A stretch of DNA of 47,920 bases, taken from positions 1 through 47,920 of the forward strand of contig JAFGNZ010000036.1 of the NCBI GenBank assembly GCA_016926755.1, read 5' to 3'. Within the stretch, counting starts at the first letter, position 1. Each line of letters begins with the position of its first letter. The stretch comes from Myxococcaceae bacterium. Lineage in GTDB: Bacteria; Myxococcota; Myxococcia; Myxococcales; Myxococcaceae. Positions 32,637-47,920 of this stretch are shown one piece after another. The notes under the pieces were generated by a model. It was not told where the DNA came from, ran no database searches, and worked only from the letters and a program-made list of their open reading frames with translations. The translations under genes and the position numbers were made by a program.

Positions 32637-33023
32637 TCAGCTCTTCACGATCCGCAGCGTGACCGTGGCCTCCTGCTGCCGCGTGATGGGCACCACCGCC
32701 GCGGCATCTCCCACCAGCTCCTCCCCCTTGAAGGCCCTCACCTCCACGCGGATGCGCTCGCCCGTCTGAGGCCCTGGCTCCAGCCCCAGGGTCAGCGGGA
32801 AGCGCTGCTCCGGCGTGAGCGGATACTCCTTCTCGAGCAGCACGTTCGCGCCGTCGGCATCCGTCACCCGCACCGCCACCTTGTCCACGTCATCGGGGAT
32901 GCGCAGCGTCCCCTCGGGCCCCAGCGCCTCGATGGTGAGGAACACCGCGCCCCGCCCGCACGCCATGAGCAGCAGCACCCCGAGCGCCAGGCCCGCCCAG
33001 CCAACCCACGAGGAGCGCCTCAC
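32637..33023 (-). CDS. Small lipoprotein coupled to the giant surface protein gene
   Basis: Protein of 128 residues with a lipoprotein signal (lipobox LMAC, cysteine at about 22) and a single beta-sandwich-like domain (AVFLTIEALGPEGTLRIPDD, VRVTDADGANVLLEKEYPL). No named family. The GTG start at 33023 overlaps the stop of the giant frame in GTGA, so it is translated directly after the TPR part of that frame. Such coupling suggests a small accessory that works with the C-terminal TPR protein. Confidence 0.7.
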   Translation of the reverse strand: MRRSSWVGWAGLALGVLLLMACGRGAVFLTIEALGPEGTLRIPDDVDKVAVRVTDADGANVLLEKEYPLTPEQRFPLTLGLEPGPQTGERIRVEVRAFKGEELVGDAAAVVPITRQQEATVTLRIVKS

Positions 33024-34138
33024 TTGAGTGGCTCCAGTCCCAGCGTCCCGGGCCGGACCGGCGCGCTCCGGTTGATCAGCACCGGGGTGGCGATCGCCGC
33101 CGCGGCTCCGACGCCTACCGCTGTCCAGAACACCCAGCTCTTGTAGAGCGGCTGAGAGGCTGTCAGCTCCACGGTCTCCATCGTCAGCTCCAGCGGCGTC
33201 TCCTCCGCGCCCACCGAGGCCAGCAGGGCCCCGCTCTCATCACGCGCTCGGAGGAAGTACTCGATGGTCCGCTTCCCCGCCGGTCCGGGGAAGGTGTTGG
33301 GGACGTTGCCCGAGAAGGCTCCGCTCTCACCCCGCGCCATCGCCAGCTGCGAGTAGCCGCTCGTGCTCCCACGAGGCCGGTAGTGCAGCGTCATCGCCGA
33401 GACCCGGTCCGCGCCGGCGACCACGGCCACGTCCACCGTCGTCGTCTCCCCGAGCACGCTCGGCTTGGGCGGCGCGTGCTGCAGCTTCACCGCCTGCCGC
33501 GCTCGGTACGTCTTCTGCGCGCTCGCGAAGTAGGAGCGGATCTTCGGCGAGGCGCCGCCGGTCAGCTCGTAGTCCGGCTTCAGCTCCAGGATGTGCAGGA
33601 AGGACTCCTCCGCCCGGGCGGCATCGTCGAAGGCGGAGTGGGTCAGGGCCATCAGCTTGTAGATCTCGAGCTTCTGCGCCGCGGTCACGCCCTTCACCGC
33701 GAGCGCGAACTCCAGCTTCGGGAGGATCCCCTCGAACTCGAAGCCCAGGTACAGCTGCCGCGCCTCATCCAGGTACGGGTTGGGCGGCCCCTCGGTCGGA
33801 GCCTCTTCCTGGGCGGGCGGCGGCGCCGCGGGCGTATCGGGGGTCACCGTGGGCTCCTCGAAAGCCTGTGCGGGCTCAGGGATCACCTCTTCGACAGGTG
33901 CTGGCGCCTCTACGGGCACTTCCGGCACGGGCTTCTTCTTCTTCTTCCTCTTCCCGGACGAGAGCTTTCCGGAGCTGGACTTGCCACCGGCAGCCTTGCC
34001 AAGAGTGGGCTTCTTCTTCCGTGACTTGCCCTGCGCCCGCTCGACCTCGGCCCCCGCGGGCCCTGGCACCCCGGCCACTCCCAACGCGAGGAGCATGGCC
34101 AGGGCCCGTGCCGCGATCCTCCGTGCGCCCCAAGCCAC
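33020..34138 (-). CDS. Possible separate gene: TPR membrane protein inside the giant frame
   Basis: Alternative reading of the last 372 codons of the giant frame, starting at GTG 34138. It gives a good signal peptide (RRIAARALAMLLALGVAGV then GPAGA-E), a Lys-rich basic region (about 35-65), a Pro/Glu-rich linker, TPR-like helices (LDEARQLYLGFEFEGILPKL, ARAEESFLHILELKPDYEL), a beta-domain (VSAMTLHYRPRGSTSGYS) and a C-terminal membrane span. The architecture of an independent exported protein is complete. No strong ribosome binding site is seen before the GTG, so this remains an alternative to a true fusion. Confidence 0.45.
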   Translation of the reverse strand: MAWGARRIAARALAMLLALGVAGVPGPAGAEVERAQGKSRKKKPTLGKAAGGKSSSGKLSSGKRKKKKKPVPEVPVEAPAPVEEVIPEPAQAFEEPTVTPDTPAAPPPAQEEAPTEGPPNPYLDEARQLYLGFEFEGILPKLEFALAVKGVTAAQKLEIYKLMALTHSAFDDAARAEESFLHILELKPDYELTGGASPKIRSYFASAQKTYRARQAVKLQHAPPKPSVLGETTTVDVAVVAGADRVSAMTLHYRPRGSTSGYSQLAMARGESGAFSGNVPNTFPGPAGKRTIEYFLRARDESGALLASVGAEETPLELTMETVELTASQPLYKSWVFWTAVGVGAAAAIATPVLINRSAPVRPGTLGLEPLK

Positions 34139-37100
34139 CCCGGCTCGCCGCCATCCGCCTCGCACGAGCAGGAGCAGCAGCGCCGCCAGCGGCAGCGGCG
34201 CACCGCCCCCGGCTCCGCAGCCGAGGCCGCCCTTCTGGTCCGACTTGACGATCACCGTCACGTAGGCGGGCGCGCTGGTCAGGTCCCCATCCGAGACGCG
34301 GAGCCGAGCCGTGTACGCCCCCGGCACCGTCGGCGTGAACGACGGCGTCGCGGTGGCCGCATCCGTGAGCTGGGGCTCGCTGCCGGTGGGGAAGCCCGAC
34401 ACCGTCCACTCATACGTGAGCTTGTCGAGCGGATCCGGATCGCTGCTCCCCGAGCCGTCCAGCTGCACGCTCGCGCCCACGGCCACCTCCACGTCGCTGC
34501 CCGTGGCGGCCACGGGCGCCTTGTTGTCCGCCCCGTGCGTGCTCACGATCACCTCCGCCTCATCTGGCACGCTGGGAGTCTCCCCGTCCCAGACGGTGAG
34601 GCGGAAGCGGTAGCGCCCCTGGCCGGGCGGCCTGAACGTCGGGCGATCGCCAGGGCTGCCCAGCACCACCGGGCTGCCCCAGAGCTGCTCCCAGACGTAC
34701 CGCAGCGCGTCCCCGTCCGGATCCGAAGACGCCGAGCCATCGAGCGTCACGACGCCACCGATGATCACCTGCTGATCCGGCCCGGCGCTGGCGAGCGGCG
34801 GCTGGTTGCCCTCGGCCGTGATCTGGATGAGCACGCTGGAGGGCGCGGAGGCCGCCTTGCCGTCCGACACGGTGAGCCCGAAGCGGACGAAGCCCGTCCG
34901 CGTCGGCGAGAAGGTGGGCCGCGGCGAGCGGTTGTCGTCGAGCGTCACCCGAGACCCCGCGAGCTGGGTCCACTGGTAGGTGAGCACGTCGCCATCCGGA
35001 TCCGCGCTGCGGGTCCCATCGAGCTGGACCTCCGTGCCCAGCACCACCGCGAGGTCCGCGCCGGCTCGGGCGATGGGGCGGCGGTTCACCGCCGGATCGT
35101 CGATCTCGAAGGTGACGGTGTCCTCGGAGCTGGTGACCCTGCCATCGCTCACGGTCAGCCCCATCACCACCGTCCCCGCGCCGGTGGCCCGGAAGGTCGG
35201 CGTGGGCGAGTTGGCGGGCAAGGGCGAGTCCGCCGGGCCCGAGATCCTCCTCCAGCTGTAGGTGATGGCATCGCCGTCCACGTCGTAGCTGCCGCGCCCC
35301 TCGAGGGTGCTCGGCTTGCCCAGCTCTCCCACCCCGTCCGGGCCGGCGTTGGCGACCGGCGGGTGGGTCGTCACCTGGGGGTTGATGGCGATCACCTCGA
35401 CGAAGGCGGGAGGGCTGTCCTCCACGCCATCGTTCACCACCAGGGTGAGGCCGTAGCGGCCGTCGGCCAGGGGCGTGAGGCGCGCCGTGGCCTTGTCCTC
35501 GTCGGCCAGCGTGGCGCCCGTGGCGCCGAGCTCCACCGTCCAGCGCCAGGTGAGCGCGTCCCCATTGGGATCGTCACTGCCGCTGCCGTCCAGCACCCGC
35601 TCCTGCCCGGCCTCCACCACCAGCCGCTCCGGCGCCGAGGCCCACGGCGGCAGGTTGTGGATCGTCACCGTGGTCTGCACCGGATCGCTCGGAGTGGAGT
35701 CGGAGGTGGCGACGAGCTCGAAGGTGTACGCGCCCGCGCGAGTCCCCAGGAACCAGGCGGTGGCCTTGTCCGCGTCGCGCAGCTCCACCGGGGCACCGGC
35801 CACCTGCGTCCACTGGTGGTCCGGCGTGCGGCCCAGCGGATCCGTCGACGAGCCCGCGAGCACGATCCGGCCCGGGGGCGCCGAGAAGTCCGCGGGCGCG
35901 GTGGCGGTAGGCTTCGGGTCCGGGATGTCGATGAGCACCTCGTCGGTGGAGGAGGCCTCGCCGTCGCCCACGGTGAGCGTGAGGGTGTGCTGGCCCACGG
36001 GCAAATCCACGCTGACGCTGGCGCCCCGGCTGAGCACCGTGCCACCCTCGGACCAGGTGTAGTCGAGCACGTCCCCATCCGGATCCTGCGAGCCCGTGCC
36101 ATCGAGTGCCACCCGCATCACGCGCTGGGTGGGGGGGATCACCTGGTCCGGGCCCGCGCTGGCCACCGGCGGCGAGTTCTCGATGAAGACCGGGCTGGAC
36201 ACCTCGGCGGGGCCGTAGTCGGTGCCATCCTTCGGCCGCACCCGGTAGTACCAGACCTCGCGCTTGCGGGTGGCCGAGGCGGGGACGACGGACTGATCGA
36301 TCAGGGAGGGCTGCTCGAGGCCGTTGCGGTACCAGCGGATCTCCGAGCCGGACTGCGGATCCCCGTCCGCGTCGGCATAGGTGAAGGTGGCCGTGAGCAC
36401 GTCCTCCGTGCGCGGCTGTGCCGGGCTGATGGTGGTGCTGGAGACGGACGGCGGCGTGTTGCCGATGATCACCGGCGCGGACGTCTGCTGCGCGCCGAAG
36501 GAGACGCCGTCCTTGGGGCGCACGCTGAAGCTCCAGGCCTCGCCCTTCTGCGCCGTGCCAGCCGGCACCGTCCTGCTCCCGCTCAGGGAGGGCACCAGCG
36601 CGCCGTCGCGGCGCCACTCCAGCTCGCTGCCGGACTCGGGCTCTCCGTCTGGATCGCTGTAGAGGTAGTTGGCCACCAGCGCGTCCTGCGTCGTCGGAGC
36701 AAACGGGGTGATCTGCAGCGCGGTGGCCACCGGGGCGGAGCTGCCCACGATGACCGAGGTGGAGGTCACCAGCGCGCCGAAGGCCACGCCGTCCCTGGGC
36801 CGCACGGTGAAGTACCAGGTCTCTCCGGCCTTGGCGGTGCCCGCGGGGACGGTGGACTGGTTGAAGAGCGAGGCCACCTCCACGCCGTTCCTGTACCAGC
36901 GCAGCTCGGTGCCCTGCTGGGCGTCCTCATCCGGGTCCACGTAGGTGTAGCTGGCCACCAGGGCATCCGTGGCCTTGGGGGACAGCGGGGACAGGTTCAC
37001 GTTCGTCGCCCGAGGCGGCGTGTTGAGGATGAGCGCGGGCGCGCTGGTGGCCAGCTGCCCGAAGTCCGTGCCGTCCCTCGGCTTCACCGTGACGTACCAG

Positions 37101-40100
37101 CTCTCGCCCTTGGCGGTGGCGCTGGCCGGCAGGGTCTTCAGGCCGAAGTACGCCGAGGCCTCCACCCCGTTGCGGAACCAGCGGAGCTCGGTGCCCGACT
37201 CGACGTCCCCGTCCTCATCCAGGTACGTGTACGCGGCCACCAGGTTGTCATCCGTGCCCGGCTGCGTGGGCTGGATGGCGAGGCTGCTCGCCAGCGGCGC
37301 GCTGTTGGCGATGGAGACCTCCGGCGAGGTGAGCGGCGTGCCGAAGTCCGCGCCATCTCTCGGGCGGACGGAGAAGGTCCAGCGCTCGCCCTTGGCGGTG
37401 ACGTCCGCCGGCACGGTGACGGCCCCCGCGAGCGCGGTCTGCTCCACGCCATTCTTGAACCAGCGCAGCTCGCTGCCCGCCTCCGCGTCCCCATCCGCGT
37501 CCGCGTAGGAGTACGAGGCGGTGAGCGCATCCCCCGCGTTAGGCGTGGCGGGGGTGATGGCCAGGCCGGTGGCCACCGGCGGCGAGTTCAGGATCATCAC
37601 CGTGTTCGAGGTCACCGTCGTCCCGGAGGTGGTGCCGTCCGAGGGCTCCACGGTGAACTTCCAGCTCTGCCCCTTGCCCAGCTTGGAGGGGGGCACGGAG
37701 AGCAGGTTGCGCAGCGAGCTGTCCTCGACGTTGTCCTTGAACCACCTCACCGTGGAGCCGGTCTGCGCATCTCCATCTGGATCCGAGTACGTGTAGGTGG
37801 CGGTCAGCGTGTCCGTGGCGCGCGGGCTGGCGGGCGCGAGGAGGGCCTGGGTGGCCGAGGGCGCGGTGTTGACGATCGTCACCGGGGTGGAGTTGACGGC
37901 CGTGCCGAAGTCCACGCCGTCCCTCGGGCGCACGGTGAAGTACCAGGTCTGCCCCTTGGCCGTGCTGCCCGCGGGCACGGTGCGCAGGTTGGCCAGGGCC
38001 GTCTGCTCCACGCCGTTCTTGAACCAGCGGATCTCGCTCCCGCTCTCGGCGTCTGCGTCCGCGTCGGCGAAGGTGTAGCTGACGGTGAGCGCGTCCGTGG
38101 ACTTCGGAGCGGCCGGCACCACCGCGGCCGCGCTCACGGAGGGCGCCGTGTTGAGCACCGTCGCGCCCGGCGCGGTCTGCGGCACGCCGCACACCGGGGT
38201 GTTGTCGCAGGGGATGACGGTGAAGTGCCAGACATCACCCTTGGTGGTGGCGCTGGCCGGCACCGTCTTGAGGTTGAGGAAGGCCGCCTGCTCCACGCCG
38301 TTCTTGAACCAGTGGACCCGGCTGCTGGTCTCCGGCTGGCTGTCCGGATCCGAGTACGTGTAGCTGGCCGTCAGCACGTCAGCGGTGCGCGGCGGGCTGG
38401 GGGTGATCCGGACGTTGGTGGCGGTGGGGGCGGAGCTGCCCACCACCACCGTGGTGGACGTCACCCATTCCCCCAGATCCGAGCCGTCCCTGGGCCTGAG
38501 CGTGTAGCGCCACTGATCGTTCAGCGTGAGCGCCATCGACACCGTCCGCTGGTTGTCCAGGGCGGGCTGGAGCACGCCATTGCGGTACCAGCGGATCTCC
38601 GAGCCCAGCTCCGGGTCGCCGTCCGCGTCCAGGTACACGTACGAGACGCTGAGGGTGGAGGTGGAGCTGGGCGAGGCGGGGGTGATCTGCACGCTGCTCG
38701 CCGTGGGCGGCGTGTTGACGATCGTCACCACCGGGGACGTCACCGGGGTGCCCAGGCTCGCCCCATCCCCCGGGCGCAAGGTGAAGTACCAGAGCTGTCC
38801 CTTGGCCGTGGCGGAGGCGGGCACGGTGAGCTGGTTGAGCAGCGCGGGCTGCTCCACGTTGTTCAGGAACCAGCGGATCTCGCTGCCGCTCTCGGTGTCG
38901 CTGTCCGCGTCGGAGTAGCTGTAGCTCGCGGTGAGGGTGTCCTCCGTCCTGGGCGGCGAGGGGGAGATCGCGGCGGCGGCGGCGACCGGCTCCGTGTTGA
39001 GGATTGTCACCGTGGGCGAGGTCTCCAGCCGGCCGAACTCCTGGCCGTCGCGCACGCGCACCGTGAAGTACCACTGCTCGCCCCGGCTGGTGGCCGAGGC
39101 GGGCACCCGCAGCAGCCCGAAGAACGCCGCCTGCTCCTGGCCGTCGCGGTACCAGCGCACCTCGGTGCCGCTCTGCGCATCTCCATCCCCGTCCTGGTAC
39201 GTGTAGGTGCCGACCAGCTCCTCCATCGTCCTCGGGGATGCCGGGGTCAGCGTGAGCTGGGTGGCCGTGGGGCGGTTGTTCGCCAGGTGGACGACGACGC
39301 GGTGGTTGTCCGTGTCCGCCACGTAGAGGCTGCCCACCGCGTCCAGCGCCAGGCCTCGAGGGCCACACAGGGACGAGGGGCCCAGGCCACCCGCGTTGCA
39401 CGAGCTGCCGGTGGAAGAAGACTGGCCGAAGATCCGGTCCGCGCTCGCATCCGTCGTCCGCGGCGAGTTGTGTTGGACGACCCGGTCCCCGTTCTCGTCC
39501 GCGATGAAGAGGTTGCCGGTCGCGTCTACCGCGATGCCCTTGGGATCACACAGGCCCGTCTGGCTCGTGGAGCACACCGCGCTGGTCATCCCCGCCTGGC
39601 CCAGCACGAAGTCCGCGGTGGTGTCCGAGGAGCGGGGCGCGTCGTACTCGAGCACGCGGTTGTTGTTGCTGTCCGCCACGTACAGCCTCAGGGCGGCCAC
39701 GCTGGTGTCCAGCGCCAGCTGGTAGGGCCCGCACAGCGAGTTCCCCGAGCGCCCTCCCCTGTTGCAGGTGCTCGTGGAGAAGCTCCCCGCCTGCCCGAAG
39801 ACGGCATCCGCCGTCGCATCGGTGCCCCACGGATCGGAGTACACGAGGACGCGGTTGTTGTCGTAGTCGCTGACGAAGAGGTCCATCGCCGGGCTCATCA
39901 CCACGCCATAGGGATCGCACAGCGTGGTGGCGTTCGGGGAGGACAGGCCACGGTTGCACGAGCTGCCGGTGAAGTCCGCCTGGCCGATGACCTTGTCCGC
40001 CGCGGTGTCCGTGGTGAAAGGCGGCTCGTAGAGCAGGACGCGATCGTTGGCGGAGTCGGCCACGGAGACTCGGCCGCTGGCGTCCACGGAGACCGCGGTG

Positions 40101-42766
40101 GGGCCGCAGAGGCTGGAGGCGGAGACGCCCTCGCTGTTGCAGCCGGACGTCAGCAGATCCGGCTGGCCCAGGACCAGGTCCGCGGGCGAGCCGTTCTGGA
40201 AGGCGGTGACATCCGCCCACGCGAGCACCCGGCTGTTGGCGGTGTCCGCCACGTAGAGCCGGTTGGGTGTCACCGAGGTGTCGATCGCCACGGAGTAGGG
40301 AGAGGACAGGCCCGCGCCATCCACCAGGTTGGAGCCGATGTAGCGGAAGCCGATCTGCCCCAGCACCGCGTCCGCCACGAAGTCCGTGGAGAGCGGGGTG
40401 TCGTAGCGCAGCAGCCGGTGGTTGCCGCTGTCCACCACATACACGTTGCCGGAGGCACTCGCGGTGAGCCCCCGCGGGTTGCAGAGGGTGAGCGCGGAGT
40501 AGCCGCCGCTGTTGCAGGTGTTGCTGGTGAAGAGCGTCTGCCCGAAGACGCGATCCGCCGTCGCGTCCCCTCCCGTGGCGAACGGGGCGTCGTACTCCAG
40601 CACCCGGGCGTTGGTGTCGGCGATGTAGACATTGCCCGCCGCGTCGGTCGTCACGTCCGCGGGGGTGCAGAGGCTGTTCGCGCTCAGCCCGCCCCCGTTG
40701 CACACGCCCCGGGTGAAGGCCACCTGGCCGAAGAGCCGGGTCGCGGGCTGCCCGTTGGTGAAGTCCACCGAGCTCCACGCCAGCACGCGGCTGTTCTGCG
40801 CATCCGCCACATAGAGCCGGTTGGGCGAGGAGGAGCGATCCACGTGGACGCCCGCCGGCCCGCTGAGGCCCACCTGGTCAATGGAGTTGCGCGCGGTGTT
40901 GAAGAAGTCCGTCTGCCCGAGGACGCGATCCGCGGCGGTGTTGTTCCCAGTAACGAAGGGCGCGTCGTAGGCGAGCACCCGGTGGGCGGAGGTGTCCGAG
41001 ACGTAGAGGTTGTTGGAGGCGTCCACCGCCACCGAGGGCGCGGCGGTGACGAGGCAGGTGGCGGAGATGGGCGAGCACGAGCTGGACGTGTAGCTGTTCT
41101 TCCCCACGAGCTTGTCCGCGACCATGTTGGTGGTGAGCGGCGTGAGGTAGCCCAGCACGCGCGAGTTGCCCTCGTCCCCCACCCACACGTTGGACGCGCC
41201 GTCCACCGCCACCGAGCCCGGGTTGCAAAGCGAGGAGCCGCTGAGGCCCGCCGCGTTGCACGCGCCCGCCGTCATGCTCGCCTGGCCGAACACCCTGTCC
41301 GCCACGAAGTCCGGGACCGAGGACAGGTAGACCAGCACGCGCGAGTTGCCATGGTCGGCCACGTAGAGGTTGCCGCTCGCGTCGAAGGACAGGCCCCGCG
41401 GGTTGCACAGCGTCTGCGCGGAGATGCTGCCCGTGTTGCAGGTGGTGACGGTGAAGCTGCTCTGGCCGAACAGCTCGTCCGCGGTGGTGTCCCCCGTCCG
41501 GCCTCCCCAGAAGATGAGCACCCGGCTGTTGCCGGTGTCCGCCACGAAGAGCTCTCCCCCCGCGTCCAATCCCACTCCCCAGGGGCTGCACAGCGTGCCG
41601 GCCCCCGCGCCGCCGCTGTTGCAGGTGGCTCCGGTGAAGGACGTCTGCCCCCACACCTTGTCGGCCAGGGCGTCGCTGGCGAAGGGCGTGTCGAAGACGA
41701 GCACCCGGTTGTTGTTGGTGTCCGCCACGTAGAGGTTGCCCGCGGCGTCCACCGCCAGGCCTCGCGGGAAGCACAGCGTCCCCGGCCCCACGCCGCCATT
41801 GTTGCACCCGGTGGAGCTCGCGCTCGGCTGCCCGAGGATCCTGTCCGCGGGGGCCCCGTTGGCGAACCCCGTGGCGCTGCTCCACGCCAGCACCCGGTGG
41901 TTGTCCGTGTCCGAGACATAGATGCGGTTGGGCGTGACGCCGCGATCGATGGCCAGCCGAGAGGGGTTGGACAGGCCCCGCGCGTCCACCCCGTTGGCCA
42001 GGTTCCCCGTCATCCCCGTCTGCCCGAGCACCGTGTCCGCGACCGTGTCCGTCAGCGGCGCGTTGAAGCGCAGGACGCGGTGGTTGCCCTGATCCGACAC
42101 GTAGAGGTTGCCCGCGCTGTCCAGCGAGAGCCCCGCCGGCGTGCACAGCGTGGAGGCGCCCGGCGTCCCCCCCAGGTTGCAGGTGTTCGAGAGGAAGTTG
42201 CCGCCCTGGCCAAAGACGCGATCCGCGACGAGATCCGTGGTGAAGGGGGCCTCGAACGCGAGGATGCGGTGGTTGCCGCTGTCCGCCACATAGAGGGTGC
42301 CCGAGGGATCCACCTCGACGGCCCTCGGAGCGCACAGCGAGGAGGCGTTCAACCCCGTGCCGTTGCAGGCGCCGCGGTACGGATCGATCTGGCCGAGGAT
42401 CTTGTCCGCCGGGGCGCCGTTGGCGTAGGCGGTGGCGTCCGCCCAGGCCAGCACGCGGCTGTTGGAGGTGTCCGCCACGTATACGCGCGGCGGGCTGACG
42501 CTGGTGTCCAGCGCAACCCCGTCCGGCGCGTTCAGCCCCCGCCCATCGAGCAGGTTGACCGCGTTGAAGGTGGGCGTCGTCTGCCCGAGGATGAGATCCC
42601 CCACGGTATCCAGGGGCAGACCCAGCTCCTGGCGGGTGCTCGCCAGCTCAGGAGGCGGCGGCGCAGGTTCCGCGCGTTCGGGCTGCTGGCACGCGGCGCT
42701 CAGCAGGAGGACGACAGAGAGAAGCTGGCACACCCGGGGGGGGGTGGAACGGGGGGAGGGGGCCAT
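33020..42766 (-). CDS. Giant NHL / Ig-like / PKD surface lipoprotein fused in frame to a TPR membrane protein
   Basis: Single frame of 3248 residues from ATG 42766; a TTG at 42799 is less likely. Lipoprotein-type signal with cysteine 26 (LLSAAC). Residues about 52-1162 hold some 18 NHL-like repeats (consensus LYVADTxNxRVLxY), most preceded by a CN-x(8-11)-LC cysteine pair. About 1164-2200 hold 11 repeats of about 94 residues with a DxDGDxxxGSExRWxxNG core. About 2201-2845 hold seven PKD-like domains (SSDPDGDxLxYxW). About 2846-2876 form a MYXO-CTERM-like tail: GCGAGGG, hydrophobic run LPLAALLLLLV, then RGGWRR. Without a stop the frame then continues into a second export signal and a TPR protein ending in a membrane span (WVFWTAVGVGAAAAIATPVL). 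Likely an adhesin or contact protein at the surface. Whether the product is one chain or two is open. Confidence 0.8.
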   Translation of the reverse strand: MAPSPRSTPPRVCQLLSVVLLLSAACQQPERAEPAPPPPELASTRQELGLPLDTVGDLILGQTTPTFNAVNLLDGRGLNAPDGVALDTSVSPPRVYVADTSNSRVLAWADATAYANGAPADKILGQIDPYRGACNGTGLNASSLCAPRAVEVDPSGTLYVADSGNHRILAFEAPFTTDLVADRVFGQGGNFLSNTCNLGGTPGASTLCTPAGLSLDSAGNLYVSDQGNHRVLRFNAPLTDTVADTVLGQTGMTGNLANGVDARGLSNPSRLAIDRGVTPNRIYVSDTDNHRVLAWSSATGFANGAPADRILGQPSASSTGCNNGGVGPGTLCFPRGLAVDAAGNLYVADTNNNRVLVFDTPFASDALADKVWGQTSFTGATCNSGGAGAGTLCSPWGVGLDAGGELFVADTGNSRVLIFWGGRTGDTTADELFGQSSFTVTTCNTGSISAQTLCNPRGLSFDASGNLYVADHGNSRVLVYLSSVPDFVADRVFGQASMTAGACNAAGLSGSSLCNPGSVAVDGASNVWVGDEGNSRVLGYLTPLTTNMVADKLVGKNSYTSSSCSPISATCLVTAAPSVAVDASNNLYVSDTSAHRVLAYDAPFVTGNNTAADRVLGQTDFFNTARNSIDQVGLSGPAGVHVDRSSSPNRLYVADAQNSRVLAWSSVDFTNGQPATRLFGQVAFTRGVCNGGGLSANSLCTPADVTTDAAGNVYIADTNARVLEYDAPFATGGDATADRVFGQTLFTSNTCNSGGYSALTLCNPRGLTASASGNVYVVDSGNHRLLRYDTPLSTDFVADAVLGQIGFRYIGSNLVDGAGLSSPYSVAIDTSVTPNRLYVADTANSRVLAWADVTAFQNGSPADLVLGQPDLLTSGCNSEGVSASSLCGPTAVSVDASGRVSVADSANDRVLLYEPPFTTDTAADKVIGQADFTGSSCNRGLSSPNATTLCDPYGVVMSPAMDLFVSDYDNNRVLVYSDPWGTDATADAVFGQAGSFSTSTCNRGGRSGNSLCGPYQLALDTSVAALRLYVADSNNNRVLEYDAPRSSDTTADFVLGQAGMTSAVCSTSQTGLCDPKGIAVDATGNLFIADENGDRVVQHNSPRTTDASADRIFGQSSSTGSSCNAGGLGPSSLCGPRGLALDAVGSLYVADTDNHRVVVHLANNRPTATQLTLTPASPRTMEELVGTYTYQDGDGDAQSGTEVRWYRDGQEQAAFFGLLRVPASATSRGEQWYFTVRVRDGQEFGRLETSPTVTILNTEPVAAAAAISPSPPRTEDTLTASYSYSDADSDTESGSEIRWFLNNVEQPALLNQLTVPASATAKGQLWYFTLRPGDGASLGTPVTSPVVTIVNTPPTASSVQITPASPSSTSTLSVSYVYLDADGDPELGSEIRWYRNGVLQPALDNQRTVSMALTLNDQWRYTLRPRDGSDLGEWVTSTTVVVGSSAPTATNVRITPSPPRTADVLTASYTYSDPDSQPETSSRVHWFKNGVEQAAFLNLKTVPASATTKGDVWHFTVIPCDNTPVCGVPQTAPGATVLNTAPSVSAAAVVPAAPKSTDALTVSYTFADADADAESGSEIRWFKNGVEQTALANLRTVPAGSTAKGQTWYFTVRPRDGVDFGTAVNSTPVTIVNTAPSATQALLAPASPRATDTLTATYTYSDPDGDAQTGSTVRWFKDNVEDSSLRNLLSVPPSKLGKGQSWKFTVEPSDGTTSGTTVTSNTVMILNSPPVATGLAITPATPNAGDALTASYSYADADGDAEAGSELRWFKNGVEQTALAGAVTVPADVTAKGERWTFSVRPRDGADFGTPLTSPEVSIANSAPLASSLAIQPTQPGTDDNLVAAYTYLDEDGDVESGTELRWFRNGVEASAYFGLKTLPASATAKGESWYVTVKPRDGTDFGQLATSAPALILNTPPRATNVNLSPLSPKATDALVASYTYVDPDEDAQQGTELRWYRNGVEVASLFNQSTVPAGTAKAGETWYFTVRPRDGVAFGALVTSTSVIVGSSAPVATALQITPFAPTTQDALVANYLYSDPDGEPESGSELEWRRDGALVPSLSGSRTVPAGTAQKGEAWSFSVRPKDGVSFGAQQTSAPVIIGNTPPSVSSTTISPAQPRTEDVLTATFTYADADGDPQSGSEIRWYRNGLEQPSLIDQSVVPASATRKREVWYYRVRPKDGTDYGPAEVSSPVFIENSPPVASAGPDQVIPPTQRVMRVALDGTGSQDPDGDVLDYTWSEGGTVLSRGASVSVDLPVGQHTLTLTVGDGEASSTDEVLIDIPDPKPTATAPADFSAPPGRIVLAGSSTDPLGRTPDHQWTQVAGAPVELRDADKATAWFLGTRAGAYTFELVATSDSTPSDPVQTTVTIHNLPPWASAPERLVVEAGQERVLDGSGSDDPNGDALTWRWTVELGATGATLADEDKATARLTPLADGRYGLTLVVNDGVEDSPPAFVEVIAINPQVTTHPPVANAGPDGVGELGKPSTLEGRGSYDVDGDAITYSWRRISGPADSPLPANSPTPTFRATGAGTVVMGLTVSDGRVTSSEDTVTFEIDDPAVNRRPIARAGADLAVVLGTEVQLDGTRSADPDGDVLTYQWTQLAGSRVTLDDNRSPRPTFSPTRTGFVRFGLTVSDGKAASAPSSVLIQITAEGNQPPLASAGPDQQVIIGGVVTLDGSASSDPDGDALRYVWEQLWGSPVVLGSPGDRPTFRPPGQGRYRFRLTVWDGETPSVPDEAEVIVSTHGADNKAPVAATGSDVEVAVGASVQLDGSGSSDPDPLDKLTYEWTVSGFPTGSEPQLTDAATATPSFTPTVPGAYTARLRVSDGDLTSAPAYVTVIVKSDQKGGLGCGAGGGAPLPLAALLLLLVRGGWRRAGVAWGARRIAARALAMLLALGVAGVPGPAGAEVERAQGKSRKKKPTLGKAAGGKSSSGKLSSGKRKKKKKPVPEVPVEAPAPVEEVIPEPAQAFEEPTVTPDTPAAPPPAQEEAPTEGPPNPYLDEARQLYLGFEFEGILPKLEFALAVKGVTAAQKLEIYKLMALTHSAFDDAARAEESFLHILELKPDYELTGGASPKIRSYFASAQKTYRARQAVKLQHAPPKPSVLGETTTVDVAVVAGADRVSAMTLHYRPRGSTSGYSQLAMARGESGAFSGNVPNTFPGPAGKRTIEYFLRARDESGALLASVGAEETPLELTMETVELTASQPLYKSWVFWTAVGVGAAAAIATPVLINRSAPVRPGTLGLEPLK
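34240..36166 (-). repeat. Seven PKD-like domains in the giant protein
   Basis: About 92 residues each, with the pattern AGPDQ..G..V.LDG..S.DPDGD.L.Y.W and LTVSDG. They form an extended beta-rod that would hold the propellers away from the cell. The second unit has lost the DPDGD acidic motif (TDPLGRTPDHQW). Confidence 0.8.
36167..39280 (-). repeat. Eleven 94-residue Ig-like repeats
   Basis: Period of about 283 bases. Each unit carries a D(A/P)DGD-type acidic turn, a RW(Y/F)(K/R)NG strand and a W.FTVRPRDG strand. Unit 4 alone has an extra cysteine pair (VIPCDNTPVCGVP). DNA identity between units is visibly high, so recombination could change copy number in frame. Confidence 0.82.
39281..42613 (-). 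repeat. About 18 NHL-like repeats with paired cysteines
   Basis: Repeats of about 60 residues ending LYVADxxNxRVL. Units 1, 4, 10 and 13 are of a second kind that lacks the cysteines and reads AIDxSVTPNRxYVADTxNSR. Eighteen blades would suit three six-bladed propellers. Confidence 0.8.
42736..42744. repeat. G9/C9 homopolymer at codons 8-11 of the giant gene
   Basis: Nine consecutive G on the given strand (C on the coding strand) within the first dozen codons of the 3248-residue frame, followed by further G6 and G5 runs up to the start codon. Slippage here would switch the whole protein off. Confidence 0.75.
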
Positions 42767-42879
42767 GAACGACTCTTGGGTAGGGCGGATACGCCTCAAC
42801 CTACCTCAGTTGGGCGGTGCCGCGCCTTCGGGGGGCAAAAGTGCTCCCCTCGCCGCGTTCCGCTACACTGGGGGTCCTC

Positions 42880-45003
42880 ATGACCCAGCAGTTTGGAAAG
42901 TACCTCCTGCTCAAGCGCCTTGCACTGGGAGGCATGGCGGAGATCTGGCTGGCCAAGCAGCTCGGGGTCCAGGGCTTCGAGAAGCTCGTGGTCGTCAAGC
43001 GGATCCTCGAGCAGTTCGCGGCCGAGAAGGAGTTCGTCCAGATGTTCCTGGACGAGGCGCGGCTGGCGGCCACCCTCAACCACCCCAACGTGGTGCAGAT
43101 CTACGATCTGGGGCAGGAGGAGGCCTCCTTCTACATCGCGATGGAGTTCATCGCCGGGCATGACCTGCTGGCCATCCTGCGCAAGTGCAAGCGCGCCCAG
43201 ATCAAGCTGCCGCCGCACATCGCCGCCCGCCTGATCGCCGGCGCCTGCGAGGGGCTCCACTACGCGCACACCCGGAAGGACAACCTCGGCAACCCGCTGA
43301 ACATCGTCCACCGGGACGTGTCCCCCTCCAACATCCTCGTCACCTACGAGGGCGGCGTGAAGGTGGTGGACTTCGGCATCGCCAAGGCCGAGTCGCACAG
43401 CACCAAGACGGAGGCCGGCAAGCTCAAGGGGAAGTTCAGCTACATGTCCCCGGAGCAGATCCGGGCGATGCCGCTGGATGCCCGCAGCGACGTGTTCGCG
43501 CTGGGCATCGTCCTGTACGAGATCCTCGTGGGGCGCCGGCTGTTCAAGCGCGACAACGAGCTGGCCATCATGCAGGACATCCTGGAGGGCGAGGTGCGGC
43601 CGGCCTCCGAGCTGCGCCCGGACGTGCCTCCGGCGCTGGACGAGATCCTCGACAAGGCGCTGCAGAAGGATCGCCGCAAGCGCTACGGCAGCGCGCAGGA
43701 GATGCAGCTGGCGCTGGAGAAGTACCTGGCCAGCACGCCCGAGCCGCCCACCAGCATCCACGTCTCGAACTTCATGCTGGAGCTGTTCGTGGAGGAGCAC
43801 GTCGCCTACCGGGCACTGCTCCGGGAGCTGCCCACCGCCCGGCCGGAGCAGCTGGTCCAGATCATCGAGCAGGGGCACCGCACCGGTACCGGCAACTCGC
43901 ACGTCTCCGGCTTCACCGGCCCCGGGGCCCGGCCGGAGGGCGAGCGCTCCGAGTCGGAGGTGGTGGAGGCGGTGCGCCGCCCCACGGGCCGCAAGAAGGT
44001 GGTGGCCGCGGTAGGCGCGCTCTTCGGAGTGGCGTTGGTGGGGCTGCTCTCCTTCGCGCTGACCCGCTCCTCCGCCCCGCCCGTGGAGGGCGAGGTGACG
44101 GTGGAGAGTGATCCGCCGGGCGCCACCCTGGTGGTGGATGGCCTGCAGTCCAAGGTGACGACACCGGGCACGTTGCGGATGCTGGCGCTCGATCAGGACG
44201 TCCGCGTGCGGATCGCGAAGGAGGGCCACGAGCCGCGAGAGGTGACGGTGCGGCTCACCCGCCAGGACCCTAAAAAGACCGTGTCGGTGCTGCTGCCCAG
44301 GGAGCAGGCGAAGCCCGGCGCGATCATGCTGGTGACCGAGCCGCCCGGGGCCACGGTGGTGCTCGATGGGAAGCCCCAGGAGGGCACGACGCCGCTGACG
44401 CTGTCCGAGGTGGCCTCGGGAGTGGAGCACCTGCTGCGGGTGAGCCTCGCCGGCCACCAGGAGGAGGCCGCCACGGTGGAGGTGACGCCCGGTGAGACCC
44501 GGTCGGTGACGATCTCGCTGAAGGCCCTGGCACCGCCAGAGCCGGAGCCGCTCTCGGAGGTGCGCGGCGCGAAGAAGGGCAAGAAGGAGGGCCTCACCGG
44601 CGAAGTGGAGATCTCCAGCACCCCGCCCGCGGACATCTTCCTGGGCGCGAAGAAGCTGGGGCGCACGCCGACGACGGTGAAGCTGCCCGCGGGGAACGTG
44701 AAGCTGACGTTCGTCAACACCGAGCTGGATCTGCGCCAGACGGCCTCGGTGAACGTGGAGGCCAGGGGGAAGACGCGGAGCGCCGTGGCGTTCCGGAAGG
44801 GGAAGATCGCCGCGGACGCGAAGCCCTGGGCGGACGTGTACATCGGCGAGAAGAAGCTGGGCACCACGCCGCTGGCGCCGCGCGAGGTCTACGAGGGCAG
44901 CTACACGCTGCGCCTGGTGAACAGCGAGCTGGGCGCCATCAAGGCCATCAAGGTGGTGGTGGTGCCGGGCAAGACCACCGTGGTGCGCGAGCAGCTCCAG
45001 TAG
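42880..45003 (+). CDS. Membrane Ser/Thr protein kinase with PEGA repeats
   Basis: Protein of 707 residues. Cytoplasmic Hanks kinase domain at about 7-285 with glycine loop RLALGGMAEIW (13-23), K40, HRDVSPSN (144-151), DFG (164-166) and SPEQ near 191. A linker leads to one membrane span at about 372-395 (VVAAVGALFGVALVGLLSFA), so the C-terminal half is periplasmic. That half has four PEGA-like units: DPPGATLVVDG, EPPGATVVLDG, TPPADIFLGAK and KPWADVYIGEK, the last two having lost the PGA core. PEGA domains are thought to bind carbohydrate or surface structures, so it may be a transmembrane sensor kinase. ATG 42880 follows a GGGGGT tract; the gene diverges from the giant surface protein over 113 bases. 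Confidence 0.94.
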   Translation: MTQQFGKYLLLKRLALGGMAEIWLAKQLGVQGFEKLVVVKRILEQFAAEKEFVQMFLDEARLAATLNHPNVVQIYDLGQEEASFYIAMEFIAGHDLLAILRKCKRAQIKLPPHIAARLIAGACEGLHYAHTRKDNLGNPLNIVHRDVSPSNILVTYEGGVKVVDFGIAKAESHSTKTEAGKLKGKFSYMSPEQIRAMPLDARSDVFALGIVLYEILVGRRLFKRDNELAIMQDILEGEVRPASELRPDVPPALDEILDKALQKDRRKRYGSAQEMQLALEKYLASTPEPPTSIHVSNFMLELFVEEHVAYRALLRELPTARPEQLVQIIEQGHRTGTGNSHVSGFTGPGARPEGERSESEVVEAVRRPTGRKKVVAAVGALFGVALVGLLSFALTRSSAPPVEGEVTVESDPPGATLVVDGLQSKVTTPGTLRMLALDQDVRVRIAKEGHEPREVTVRLTRQDPKKTVSVLLPREQAKPGAIMLVTEPPGATVVLDGKPQEGTTPLTLSEVASGVEHLLRVSLAGHQEEAATVEVTPGETRSVTISLKALAPPEPEPLSEVRGAKKGKKEGLTGEVEISSTPPADIFLGAKKLGRTPTTVKLPAGNVKLTFVNTELDLRQTASVNVEARGKTRSAVAFRKGKIAADAKPWADVYIGEKKLGTTPLAPREVYEGSYTLRLVNSELGAIKAIKVVVVPGKTTVVREQLQ

Positions 45004-45017
45004 CTGGAACGCAACGA

Positions 45018-45043
45018 GGGCGCTCCCCGCGAGGAGAGCGCCC
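45018..45043. terminator. Hairpin terminator between convergent kinase and small-protein genes
   Basis: GGGCGCTC (45018-45025) pairs perfectly with GAGCGCCC (45036-45043) across a ten-base loop, 15 bases after the kinase stop. A second small stem TCCGCG/CGCGGA (45053-45058, 45065-45070) lies next to it, close to the end of the opposing gene. Either strand could use them. Confidence 0.55.
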
Positions 45044-45071: not shown

Positions 45072-45314
45072 CTACTTGGTCTCCGCCGCGGTGGCCTCGG
45101 CCTTCTTGGCGGCCTTCTTGGCGGCCTTCTTGGTCTTCTTGGCGGGCTTCTCGGCGGCAGGAGCCTCGGCGGCAGGAGCCTCGGCGGCAGGAGCCTCGGC
45201 GGCAGGAGCCTCGGCGGCGGGAGCCTCGGCGGCAGGAGCCTCGGCCGGCTTGACGGCGTCGGAGGCAAACGCGGAGGTGGCAACGAAGGCAACAGCGATG
45301 AAGAGCTTCTTCAT
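45072..45314 (-). CDS. 80-residue secreted repeat protein with a Lys-rich tail
   Basis: Signal peptide at about 1-18 (KKLFIAVAFVATSAFA-S), then six PAAEA units (about 24-54), then a Lys/Ala tail resembling bacterial histone-H1-like C-termini (KKTKKAAKKAAKKAE, about 58-72). The mature protein would be about 62 residues, disordered, acidic in the repeat half and strongly basic at the end. GGAG lies eight bases before ATG 45314. A near-consensus sigma-54 promoter lies 65-80 bases upstream of the ATG. Function unknown; a secreted or periplasmic polyelectrolyte that could bind DNA, polysaccharide or peptidoglycan is a reasonable guess. Clean signal, ribosome site and promoter make it a real gene. 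Confidence 0.8.
   Translation of the reverse strand: MKKLFIAVAFVATSAFASDAVKPAEAPAAEAPAAEAPAAEAPAAEAPAAEAPAAEKPAKKTKKAAKKAAKKAEATAAETK
45151..45240. repeat. Six 15-bp tandem repeats
   Basis: Six consecutive copies of TCGGCGGCAGGAGCC (unit five has one A-to-G change), encoding the PAAEA repeats of the 80-residue protein on the minus strand. Unit length is a multiple of three, so copy-number change keeps the frame. Confidence 0.95.
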
Positions 45315-45378
45315 GACGGGGATCTCCAGGTTGGAGCAGCAACGGCGCGAGATGCGACCGTTTGCGCCAGGCCCTCAG

Positions 45379-45394
45379 AGCAGGGGCCGTGCCA
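45379..45394 (-). promoter_or_regulatory. Sigma-54 promoter of the 80-residue repeat protein
   Basis: On the minus strand the sequence is TGGCACGGCCCCTGCT, matching TGGCACG-N4-TTGCW at 11 of 12 defined positions, with the required GG and GC ten bases apart. Transcription would start near 45368, leaving a leader of about 54 bases before ATG 45314. Confidence 0.7.
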
Positions 45395-45436
45395 CGGGCG
45401 CTTTCCTGGGAAACCCAAGCTCACATGGCTCGAAGG

Positions 45437-45486
45437 TGGGGAGATTCTCCTCATTTTGGACTCAAACAATGGGGAGCGTTTCCCCA
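45437..45486. promoter_or_regulatory. Two phased dyads, candidate sigma-54 activator sites
   Basis: TGGGGAG occurs at 45437-45443 and again at 45470-45476, exactly 33 bases (about three helical turns) apart. Each begins a dyad: GGAGA-T-TCTCC (45440-45450) and TGGGGA-GCGTT-TCCCCA (45470-45486). Their centres are about 77 and 110 bases upstream of the predicted sigma-54 start, the usual place for NtrC-type enhancer sites. Confidence 0.5.
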
Positions 45487-45542
45487 GGCGCTGCCCGTGA
45501 GACCTTTGACGGCACCCCCTGTCTTCTGCGATTTGAAGGGAT

Positions 45543-45986
45543 ATGCGGCACCTCTTCATCGCGATGGCCACCGCTTGGTGGGCGCTTGGGTGCGCTGCGG
45601 GCATACCTCCTGCGCTCCTCCAGGCGCGAACCCAGGAAGCGGAGCGGTGGCAGCGCCAGTACGAGGAGGAGCGAGTCCGCTCCGAGGAGCTGGCGGAGCG
45701 GCTGTCGGCGGTGGAGTCCGAGCTGGAGCGCGTGGCGAATGAGCACGCGGAGGCCAACCAGGCCCTGCAGGTGCTGAGCGAGGAGGTGGCGCGGCTGGCG
45801 GCGGAGCGAGACTCCCTGGAGGAGCACAACGCTCAGCTCCAGGCCCGGCAGCGCGAGCTGGCCAGGCTGCAGGAGCAGCTGTCCGACAAGTGGTTCGAGT
45901 CGGCGCTCTCCCGCGCGCGGCGACACAGCCCGCCGCCAGCGCCGGCGGCCACCAGCCCGGGCGGTGGACAGGGCGCCTCACCCTGA
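45543..45986 (+). CDS. Coiled-coil lipoprotein upstream of the sensor kinase
   Basis: Protein of 147 residues. Lipoprotein signal with lipobox ALGC (cysteine at about 17), then a long coiled coil from about 28 to 118 rich in Glu, Arg, Leu and Gln (RQYEEERVRSEELAERLSAV), then a Pro/Ala/Gly-rich tail. No named family. It is eight bases upstream of the GTG I use for the histidine kinase gene, so co-transcription is likely. A periplasmic coiled-coil lipoprotein next to a kinase with a long periplasmic helical domain suggests a signal-input partner, by inference only. A TTGACG box at 45506-45511 may be its -35; the -10 is poor. Confidence 0.78.
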   Translation: MRHLFIAMATAWWALGCAAGIPPALLQARTQEAERWQRQYEEERVRSEELAERLSAVESELERVANEHAEANQALQVLSEEVARLAAERDSLEEHNAQLQARQRELARLQEQLSDKWFESALSRARRHSPPPAPAATSPGGGQGASP

Positions 45987-45993
45987 GCGTCTC

Positions 45994-47385
45994 GTGAACT
46001 CTCGCGCGCCCATCCGCGGCTACCGGGCAGGCTTCCTCTTCTCGGTGGCCCTCCTGTCCGCCGTCGCGGCCTTCACCCTGTGGACGGAGGTGCGCACGGG
46101 CGAGCGGGTGGACGCGCTGGTGCGCGAGGCCCTGGAGCGCGCCAGCCTGATCGGCCGCATCCGCGTGGACACGCTCTCGCTGGAGAGCGCCATCGAGGCG
46201 CACATTCGCGCCACGGATGACGAGGAGCGCCATGCGGCCAACGCGGTGATGGAGGACATCCTCGGAAGCATCCGCCGCTCCACCGAGGCCTACACGCGCA
46301 ACCTGCCGCTGGGGGAGGAGGTGGGGTGGCAACGCTTCAATGGGGCCTGTCAGAAGCTGGCGGATCAGGTGCGCGCCACCGCCGTCTTCTCCCGCCGCCA
46401 CCAGGCCGAGCGGGCCCGGCATCAGCTGGCCGAGCGCATCCGCCCGCTCGTGATGGAGGTGGACGCGCTGGCCACCCAGCTGGCCCAGGAGAACACGGAC
46501 GAGGCGCGGGAGCTCGTCGGCCACCTGGCCCGCATGCGGGTGCGCAACACCGCGCTGGGCACGGGGGCCACGCTGGTGGCCGTGCTCGTCTCGCTGCTGG
46601 TGGGCTGGCACATCACCTCCGTGCTGCGGCGCCAGGAGGCCACCATCCAGCGGCAGCTCGAGGAGGTGGGCCGGGCCAACCGGGAGCTGGACGCCTTCAC
46701 GAGCCGGGTGGCGCATGATCTGATGGGGCCGCTGGCGCCGCTGAAGGGCTACCTCACCCTCATCCGCCGCACGGGTGGGGTGCGGGACACAGGGGCAGTG
46801 GAGATGCTGGCCCAGTGCGAGTCGAGCGCGGTGCGCATGGGCGAGCTCATCGAGGCGCTGCTGCGCTTCTGCCGGGCGGGGACGCGGGGCGAGCGCACCT
46901 CGGCGGAGCTGGACACCGCGGTGAGCACGGTGCTGCTGGAGCTGGGGCAGACGGCCACCGCCCAGGGGGTGGAGCTGGAGCGAGAGCTGGAGCAGGGGGT
47001 GCGGGTGGACTGCCCCAACCAGCTCCTCCAGGTGGTGGCGCGCAACCTCGTGTCCAACGCGGTGAAGTACACGGCGGGCCGCCCCTCGCCACGCGTCTCC
47101 GTGCGGGCCTCCCGGGCGGGCGCCGAGGCGGTGCTGGAGGTGAGGGACAATGGCCTCGGCATGAGCGCGGCCACGCGAGCCTCGCTCTTCCAGCCCTTCT
47201 TCCGCGCGCCCGAGGCCCGGGGGCTGCCGGGCCATGGGCTGGGGCTGGCCACCGCGAAGCGGTTGGTGGAGGCGCACGGGGGGAGCCTGGCCGTGGAGTC
47301 CCAGGAGGGCGTGGGGACGACGATGACGGTCCGCCTCCCGCTCCTGACGGCGCCGGAGGTGGCGGCTGGCAGGGTGGCGCCATGA
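45994..47385 (+). CDS. Transmembrane sensor histidine kinase
   Basis: Protein of about 463 residues from GTG 45994; an in-frame GTG at 45964 would overlap the lipoprotein gene. Two membrane spans (about 11-30 and 190-210) flank an all-helical periplasmic sensor of about 160 residues. HisKA follows with FTSRVAHDLMGPLAPLKGYL (phosphoacceptor H241), then HATPase_c with NLVSNAVKYT (N box), DNGLGM and GHGLGLATAK. All catalytic boxes are intact. The stop overlaps the next start (ATGA), pairing it with the sigma-54 response regulator. No HAMP or PAS domain is obvious. Confidence 0.93.
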   Translation: MNSRAPIRGYRAGFLFSVALLSAVAAFTLWTEVRTGERVDALVREALERASLIGRIRVDTLSLESAIEAHIRATDDEERHAANAVMEDILGSIRRSTEAYTRNLPLGEEVGWQRFNGACQKLADQVRATAVFSRRHQAERARHQLAERIRPLVMEVDALATQLAQENTDEARELVGHLARMRVRNTALGTGATLVAVLVSLLVGWHITSVLRRQEATIQRQLEEVGRANRELDAFTSRVAHDLMGPLAPLKGYLTLIRRTGGVRDTGAVEMLAQCESSAVRMGELIEALLRFCRAGTRGERTSAELDTAVSTVLLELGQTATAQGVELERELEQGVRVDCPNQLLQVVARNLVSNAVKYTAGRPSPRVSVRASRAGAEAVLEVRDNGLGMSAATRASLFQPFFRAPEARGLPGHGLGLATAKRLVEAHGGSLAVESQEGVGTTMTVRLPLLTAPEVAAGRVAP

Positions 47386-47920
47386 CTTCCATTCGAATCC
47401 TCGCCGTCGATGATGATCCTCACGCGAGGGATCTGCTCCAGCGGCTCCTCGGCACACTGGGCGAGGTGGTGCTGGCGGCGGATCCGAAGAGCGCCGCCGA
47501 GCGGCTGGCCGAGGACGGGCCGTTCGATCTGGTGCTCACGGACATGGCCATGCCCAACCCGGGGGATGGGCTCGAGGTGCTCCAGGCGGTGAGGGCGCGG
47601 CTGGCGGACACGCCCGTCATCGTGGTGACGGCGTTCGGCAACATCGAGGGCGCGCTGGACAGCATCCAGCAAGGGGCCTTCGACTACCTGGCCAAGCCCT
47701 TCGACGTGGACGCCATCCTCCGGGTGTCGCGGCGGGCGCTGGAGCAGAAGCGGCTGGTGGAGGAGAACCGCTCGCTGCGCAAGCAGGTGGAGCGCAGCAC
47801 GCTGGTGGGCCGCAGCCCGGCGCTGCTGGAGGTCTACAAGCAGGTGGCGCGGGCGGCGGCGACGCAGGTGCCGGTGCTGATCACGGGCGAGACGGGGACG
47901 GGCAAGGAGATGGTGGCGCG
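47382..47920 (+). CDS. NtrC-type sigma-54-dependent response regulator, N-terminal part
   Basis: The first 179 residues are in the window; the gene runs off the right edge. Receiver domain at about 4-120 with acidic residues in AVDDDPH, phosphoacceptor D54 in LVLTDMAMP, VTAFGNIEGAL and the conserved lysine in YLAKPFDVDAI. A linker follows, then the start of an AAA+ sigma-54 activation domain: LVGRSPALLEVYKQVARAAA and the Walker A sequence GETGTGKE near 169-176. The DNA-binding domain is beyond the window. Overlap with the kinase stop makes a cognate pair. The sigma-54 promoter 2 kb upstream is a natural candidate target. Confidence 0.95.
   Translation, partial: MTSIRILAVDDDPHARDLLQRLLGTLGEVVLAADPKSAAERLAEDGPFDLVLTDMAMPNPGDGLEVLQAVRARLADTPVIVVTAFGNIEGALDSIQQGAFDYLAKPFDVDAILRVSRRALEQKRLVEENRSLRKQVERSTLVGRSPALLEVYKQVARAAATQVPVLITGETGTGKEMVA

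Follow-up and report, generated by a model that had tools for sequence, protein, structure and literature searches.

In a genome of the Myxococcaceae, a gene for a small, probably exported protein lies divergent from a regulator operon whose kinase and NtrC-type activator appear by gene order and sequence to be orthologs of the Nla28S/Nla28 pair of Myxococcus xanthus, and between them stand a strongly conserved sigma-54 promoter, facing the small gene, and two inverted repeats with phased spacing. The most probable reading is that phosphorylated Nla28 (Nla28~P), bound to both dyads, activates this promoter and hence the gene for the secreted disordered protein, in an arrangement resembling zraP-zraSR. 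Comparative genomics gives good support to the promoter logic; that the small gene is activated in this way, that its product is exported and what this product does are parts of the model that we infer. The window (the whole stretch of DNA analysed, 47,920 nucleotides) is one contig within a 9.6-Mb genome, and the genome-wide counts given below come from pattern searches of this genome. The small gene is encoded on the minus strand, and the coiled-coil, kinase and NtrC-type regulator genes run divergently from it on the plus strand, as listed here:

45018..45043, minus strand: G+C-rich hairpin past the stop codon, where a single-gene transcript probably ends (read from sequence)
45072..45314, minus strand: gene for the small secreted protein (ORF, 80 aa; mature part about 63 aa)
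45264..45314, minus strand: predicted signal peptide MKKLFIAVAFVATSAFA with AxA cleavage site (read from sequence; pattern repeated in orthologs)
45324..45327, minus strand: GGAG ribosome-binding site (columns 98-100% conserved)
45342..45361, minus strand: inverted repeat in the 5' leader, between the predicted start site and the ribosome-binding site (base-pair covariation)
45379..45394, minus strand: sigma-54 promoter, -24/-12, TGGCACGGCCCCTGCT (11/12 to consensus)
45437..45453, no strand: proximal activator dyad TGAGGAG-AAT-CTCCCCA (TGAGGAGAATCTCCCCA; arms 93% conserved)
45470..45486, no strand: distal activator dyad TGGGGAAACGCTCCCCA (arms 96% conserved; 33 bp from the proximal dyad)
45504..45534, plus strand: CTTTGACG, then CGATTT 17 bp on, probable sigma-70-family promoter of the regulator operon (CGTCAAAG columns 99% conserved)
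45543..45986, plus strand: gene for a coiled-coil protein that opens the divergent operon; deep branches lack it (ORF, synteny)
45964..47385, plus strand: histidine kinase, Nla28S ortholog (Pfam HisKA, HATPase_c, 4HB_MCP_1); its start may be the ATG at 45994
47388..47918, plus strand: ortholog of Nla28, an NtrC-family response regulator, truncated where the contig ends (Pfam Response_reg and Sigma54_activat)

Because most hits of a DNA similarity search, with the entire small gene as query, were low-complexity coding repeats for Ala, Pro and Lys, orthologous loci were collected by synteny via the kinase, which gave a comparison set of kinase neighbourhoods from 60 genomes of the family. The kinase is present in 76 of the 96 family genomes, and a genome search detected it in none of the other 49 genomes of the order; a scan of genome contigs returned one true ortholog, in Hyalangium versicolor, the other matches being distant kinases. 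This species is the closest relative with a name that the searches gave, and it suggests the genus. Of the 57 loci with a coiled-coil gene, 53 have at the same position a small secreted ORF with its own start and signal peptide.

The 80-residue protein in the window starts with the signal peptide followed by SDAV..., and its mature part is made of Ala/Glu/Pro (AEAP) repeats and then a Lys-rich tail. Mature orthologs have a mean of 67 residues (Ala 36%, Lys 18%, Glu 14%, Pro 13%, Thr 10%) and a net charge of 0 to +5, contain no Cys, Trp or Tyr and very few His, and nearly lack Phe, Leu and Ile; the four proteins examined for charge distribution each have an acidic N-terminal half and a basic C-terminal half. 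No family in Pfam or NCBIfam matches the protein. Its sequence drifts, but its composition, export signal and promoter are kept, a pattern suggesting that it acts physically in the envelope or has a partner of low specificity. As read from signal peptide and composition, the product would be a disordered, exported Ala/Lys/Glu/Pro polyampholyte, in keeping with the secreted polyelectrolyte peptide of the original prediction. The hairpin past its stop codon has a T-poor tail and was not called by a terminator scan.

On the far side of this hairpin, a Ser/Thr kinase gene with PEGA domains (42817-45003, plus strand) is convergent with the small gene; it was rejected as a member of the module, since it is not syntenic in relatives, which have a different kinase nearby in the opposite orientation. 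A very long ORF (33020-42799, minus strand; 3259 aa as listed, with a TTG start) contains NHL-like and PKD-like repeats and then a separate C-terminal part.

The sigma-54 promoter predicted to match 11 of 12 consensus positions was found upstream of the small gene: TGGCACG-GCCC-CTGCT scores 11/12 against TGGCACG-N4-TTGCW and has GG at -24 and GC at -12 at the fixed spacing. Its core columns are 99.5% conserved over the 53 loci, in which the site stands 73-81 nt from the ATG; the genome also encodes sigma-54 itself. Transcription is predicted to start near 45368. The two related dyads, of 17 bp each, are centred at 45445 (proximal) and 45478 (distal) and so lie exactly 33 bp apart as claimed, a spacing retained in 52 of the 53 loci and shortened to 32 bp in one. 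The centres fall 77 and 110 bases upstream of the predicted transcription start, so that the distances originally given hold for that start and not for the ATG, from which they are about 131 and 164 bases. Arm conservation in the 53 loci amounts to 0.959 for the distal and 0.931 for the proximal dyad, compared with 0.52-0.65 for the surrounding DNA; the stretches between the elements reach 52-64%. The conserved sigma-54 element of the small gene lies about 60 bp from the dyads; the distance between dyads and promoter, measured from start to start, varies from 48 to 71 bp in lineage-specific steps, and such shifts by lineage fit the behaviour of an enhancer.

Taken singly, these elements do not exceed chance in the genome. 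The exact string TGGCACGN5TGCT occurs 16 times versus 20 times for its reversed control and was therefore rejected as stand-alone evidence. The genome scan for a TGGGGAG-based dyad that had been proposed gave a divided outcome: the single strict dyad occurs once, at the level of the control (also 1 per strand), whereas paired dyads at 33-bp spacing with 0 mismatches are found at this locus only. A dyad with a sigma-54 site within the measured distance range also occurs once in the genome and never in the controls. These results show that a single sigma-54 string or a single dyad is near chance while their combination is beyond it, with conservation being decisive; conservation likewise backs the original picture of phased activator dyads and a real sigma-54 promoter beside a likely NtrC-type activator. 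Since other strict dyads in three genomes (G040-G042) mostly lack a good sigma-54 neighbour, we do not claim a wider regulon.

The NtrC-type activator and kinase that had been predicted on the other strand are both borne out by Pfam. The two genes are adjacent, the kinase is membrane-bound, and a full-length ortholog of the regulator (L084) has a receiver, an AAA+ sigma-54 domain and a Fis-type HTH_8 domain; the activator loop reads GSFTGA instead of GAFTGA in the two orthologs read. A structure model of the kinase's sensor (pLDDT 82) shows a periplasmic four-helix bundle whose fold is similar to that of chemoreceptor domains with amino acids and small acids as ligands (Foldseek best E 0.009, probability 1.0; E up to about 0.05). 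This agrees with the suggestion that A-signal is what Nla28S senses.

For the nla28 gene of M. xanthus (MXAN_1167), the promoter half-sites have been published as GTGGGGAG-N3-CTCCGCAG-N25-CTCCCCAG (PMC9765219). This string is found exactly, on the opposite strand and at the dyads, in genomes G062, G065, G066, G075, G076 and G078 (L112-L115, L119, L122), and in diverged but still recognisable form in the window. The exact strings, together with the gene order, provide the species link to M. xanthus nla28, and on this basis the kinase/regulator pair is taken as orthologous to Nla28S/Nla28. Hence the regulatory side of the switch, which the original prediction had called undescribed, belongs to a known system, and binding to these sites has already been published from M. 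xanthus EMSA (PMC9765219). Further inputs may act on the small gene, so that the switch may be less complete than originally predicted. In those assays with the DNA-binding domain (Nla28-DBD), HS1 and HS2 were both essential and HS3 was dispensable, a result unexpected by the authors, who model the Nla28 site as an 8-bp direct repeat (PMC9765219). In M. xanthus-type genomes HS2 and HS1 together make up the proximal dyad, one half-site per arm, and HS3 corresponds to a single arm of the distal dyad; the other arm of that dyad is left unnoted in the published list of half-sites. The requirement for HS1 and HS2 but not HS3 would then follow from both arms of one dyad plus a single arm of another. 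Inverted-repeat sites are usual for Fis-type HTH dimers, and the conservation pattern supports the reading of the Nla28 sites as two inverted repeats rather than direct repeats. The published Nla28 regulon has looser half-sites at many promoters, so that exclusivity does not follow.

The published nla28 sigma-54 element, TGGAGCG-N4-CTGCT, was placed in the upstream gene by mutational analysis (PMC9765219). It lies inside the coiled-coil gene, is absent from the window, and among the Myxococcus-type loci compared was found only in L115 (G076); close relatives that keep the binding sites do not conserve it, so it is no defining feature of the Nla28S/Nla28 system. The regulator operon has another candidate promoter adjoining the distal dyad. 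The second hexamer there is weak and the CTTTGACG region fails a strict sigma-70 consensus scan, and CGTCAAAG is retained where the small gene is lost; CTTTGACG with the weak hexamer is, as judged from sequence, probably the best candidate for the promoter of the coiled-coil/kinase/regulator operon.

The association of the sites with the small gene was further examined in deep branches, copies and losses. Deep branches, where kinase identity is only 50-59%, lack the coiled-coil gene; there the small gene and the kinase are direct divergent neighbours, and in most cases paired dyads (33 or 31 bp apart) and a 10-11/12 sigma-54 site lie between the two. Tandem copies of the small gene in G040 and G041 have their own sigma-54 site and dyads, and a dispersed copy of the module (L211, G041:C29:95000-97200) comprises the small gene, the sigma-54 site and paired dyads without adjoining regulator genes. 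The small ORF has been lost in four members of the genus (L087-L090, corresponding to G037, G039, G038 and G036). Neither G037 nor G039 has a small gene, a proximal dyad or a sigma-54 site any longer, while CGTCAAAG and a remnant of the distal dyad persist next to the regulator operon. In G036 and G038 an intact small ORF is missing but the sigma-54 site is still there together with a terminator-like hairpin, possibly as a decaying gene or a leftover short RNA; this state counts against the model. Because copies carry the sites and losses remove them together, the proximal dyad is linked to the small gene, and the distal dyad may act in either direction. As these loci read, the unit is the small gene with its own promoter, beside the regulators. 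Second tandem small genes without a sigma-54 site were seen in G030, G029, G018 and G031 and were excluded from this support. A second, similar secreted small ORF in tandem, without a sigma-54 site, lies about 840-870 bases from the coiled-coil start in L104, L106, L107 and L109, and a common GTGAATAAA motif upstream of it suggests another type of promoter.

The leader of the small gene contains an inverted repeat of the ACGGCGC-N6-GCGCCGT type that is well conserved in the family. In an alignment of 25 distinct sequences, 92% of cells are paired and 3 of 7 pairs show changes on both sides, giving a covariation score of 0.219 compared with 0.096 for shuffles and at most 0.116 for slid controls; no Rfam family fits it. 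It may act as a hairpin in the RNA or as an operator in the DNA, and both readings stand given its conserved loop bases and the C-A mismatches in one lineage.

We propose that phosphorylated Nla28 would bind both inverted-repeat sites on the same face of the DNA (33 bp is about three helical turns) and, from 77-110 bp upstream, loop to sigma-54 polymerase at TGGCACG-N4-CTGCT, which would switch on a single gene for a small exported protein; the kinase operon would be transcribed in the opposite direction from the sigma-70-like promoter adjoining the distal dyad. By analogy with ZraP and ZraSR, the exported protein would act in the envelope as an accessory or feedback part of the starvation response, and it may have a protective effect on the envelope and dampen the activity of its own kinase. 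In the enterobacterial zraP-zraSR system, a kinase and an NtrC-family regulator are divergent from a sigma-54-driven gene for a small periplasmic protein (PMC4987338). The locus described here likewise has a divergent gene for a small exported protein, a sigma-54 promoter and an adjoining kinase/NtrC pair. However, ZraP is a zinc-binding folded chaperone, whereas the present protein is a low-complexity polyampholyte without Cys, with very few His and without a family match; moreover, zraSR itself has a sigma-54 promoter, whereas the conserved promoter of the regulator operon here looks sigma-70-like. The module may therefore work like ZraPSR but would not be a member of it. A gene for a small periplasmic protein is also divergent from, and under the control of, a neighbouring two-component system in cpxP-cpxRA, as proposed here; unlike here, CpxR is an OmpR-type, sigma-70 regulator and CpxP is a folded protein.

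Other explanations of the locus were weighed against this model. The dyads could serve autoregulation of the nla28 operon alone, through the intragenic sigma-54 site, with the small gene a bystander that has an independent promoter; the published mutational evidence for nla28 sigma-54 elements within the upstream gene (PMC9765219) and the survival of a distal-dyad remnant after loss of the small gene in G037 and G039 agree with this. It is nonetheless highly improbable, as the published sigma-54 string occurs in one Myxococcus-type locus while that of the small gene is near-invariant, and the dyads accompany duplicated small genes with no regulator operon beside them. Alternatively, the sigma-54 promoter could be real and answer mainly to another NtrC-like protein, Nla28 binding only for autoregulation. 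M. xanthus has 53 NtrC-like activators with documented cross-regulation (PMC9765219), but the small gene is divergently adjacent to the kinase/regulator pair throughout the family, even where the coiled-coil gene is missing, and Nla28-DBD of M. xanthus is published to bind these arms in vitro; we regard this option as very unlikely.

Two further readings concern the product. The exported protein could itself be the signal, either as a ligand that feeds back on Nla28S or as a substrate whose proteolysis yields A-signal amino acids. In the literature Nla28 is connected with the making of A-signal, and a response of Nla28S to that signal has been proposed (PMC9765219). In favour are also the shortness, the predicted export and the Pro- and Ala-rich composition of the protein, as well as the sensor model, a four-helix bundle of chemoreceptor type that resembles receptors for amino acids, but this fold match is of low significance (E about 0.01-0.05). 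Tyr, Trp, Phe, Leu and Ile are among the most active A-signal amino acids, and the mature proteins contain almost none of them, which makes this reading quite unlikely. That the transcript, as leader hairpin or small RNA, is the product in place of the peptide would agree with the covarying leader repeat and with the promoter and terminator-like hairpin kept without an ORF in G036 and G038; this is extremely improbable, since signal peptide, ribosome-binding site and reading frame are kept in the 53 loci and in deep branches, and the loss in G036-G039 resembles decay. Activation of the small gene by Nla28~P from both dyads thus remains the preferred reading.

What is known of this system is the regulator and the DNA that it binds; its conserved divergent target has apparently been overlooked. 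In the Nla28 literature, the sites are credited to the nla28 operon as 8-bp direct repeats with an intragenic sigma-54 site, whereas here the same gene pair (by synteny, with half-sites and spacing exact in related loci) is accompanied by two inverted repeats 33 bp apart and a stronger, conserved sigma-54 promoter on the opposite strand for a small secreted protein. Three things are new with respect to the papers covered: a small gene on the divergent side, a sigma-54 promoter of that gene which is both better and conserved, and the recognition that the sites are inverted repeats. These papers do not name the small gene among the targets of Nla28. The inverted-repeat reading of the EMSA data would alter the prediction of the Nla28 regulon, and the data suggest that the reference nla28 promoter region contains a second, stronger promoter facing the opposite way.

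In M. xanthus, Nla28 has a key part in the early regulation of multicellular development, but for its link to A-signal there has so far been no conserved direct output at the nla28 locus, for which the small exported protein, kept beside the kinase in most of the family together with the best paired sites of this genome, is a candidate. A more far-reaching and rather unlikely idea, offered tentatively, is that the small secreted polyampholyte represents the ancestral output dedicated to Nla28S/Nla28 and, in addition, feeds back on the periplasmic sensor of the kinase. If this were true, a developmental regulator of starvation and density would read the level of a protein of its own making.
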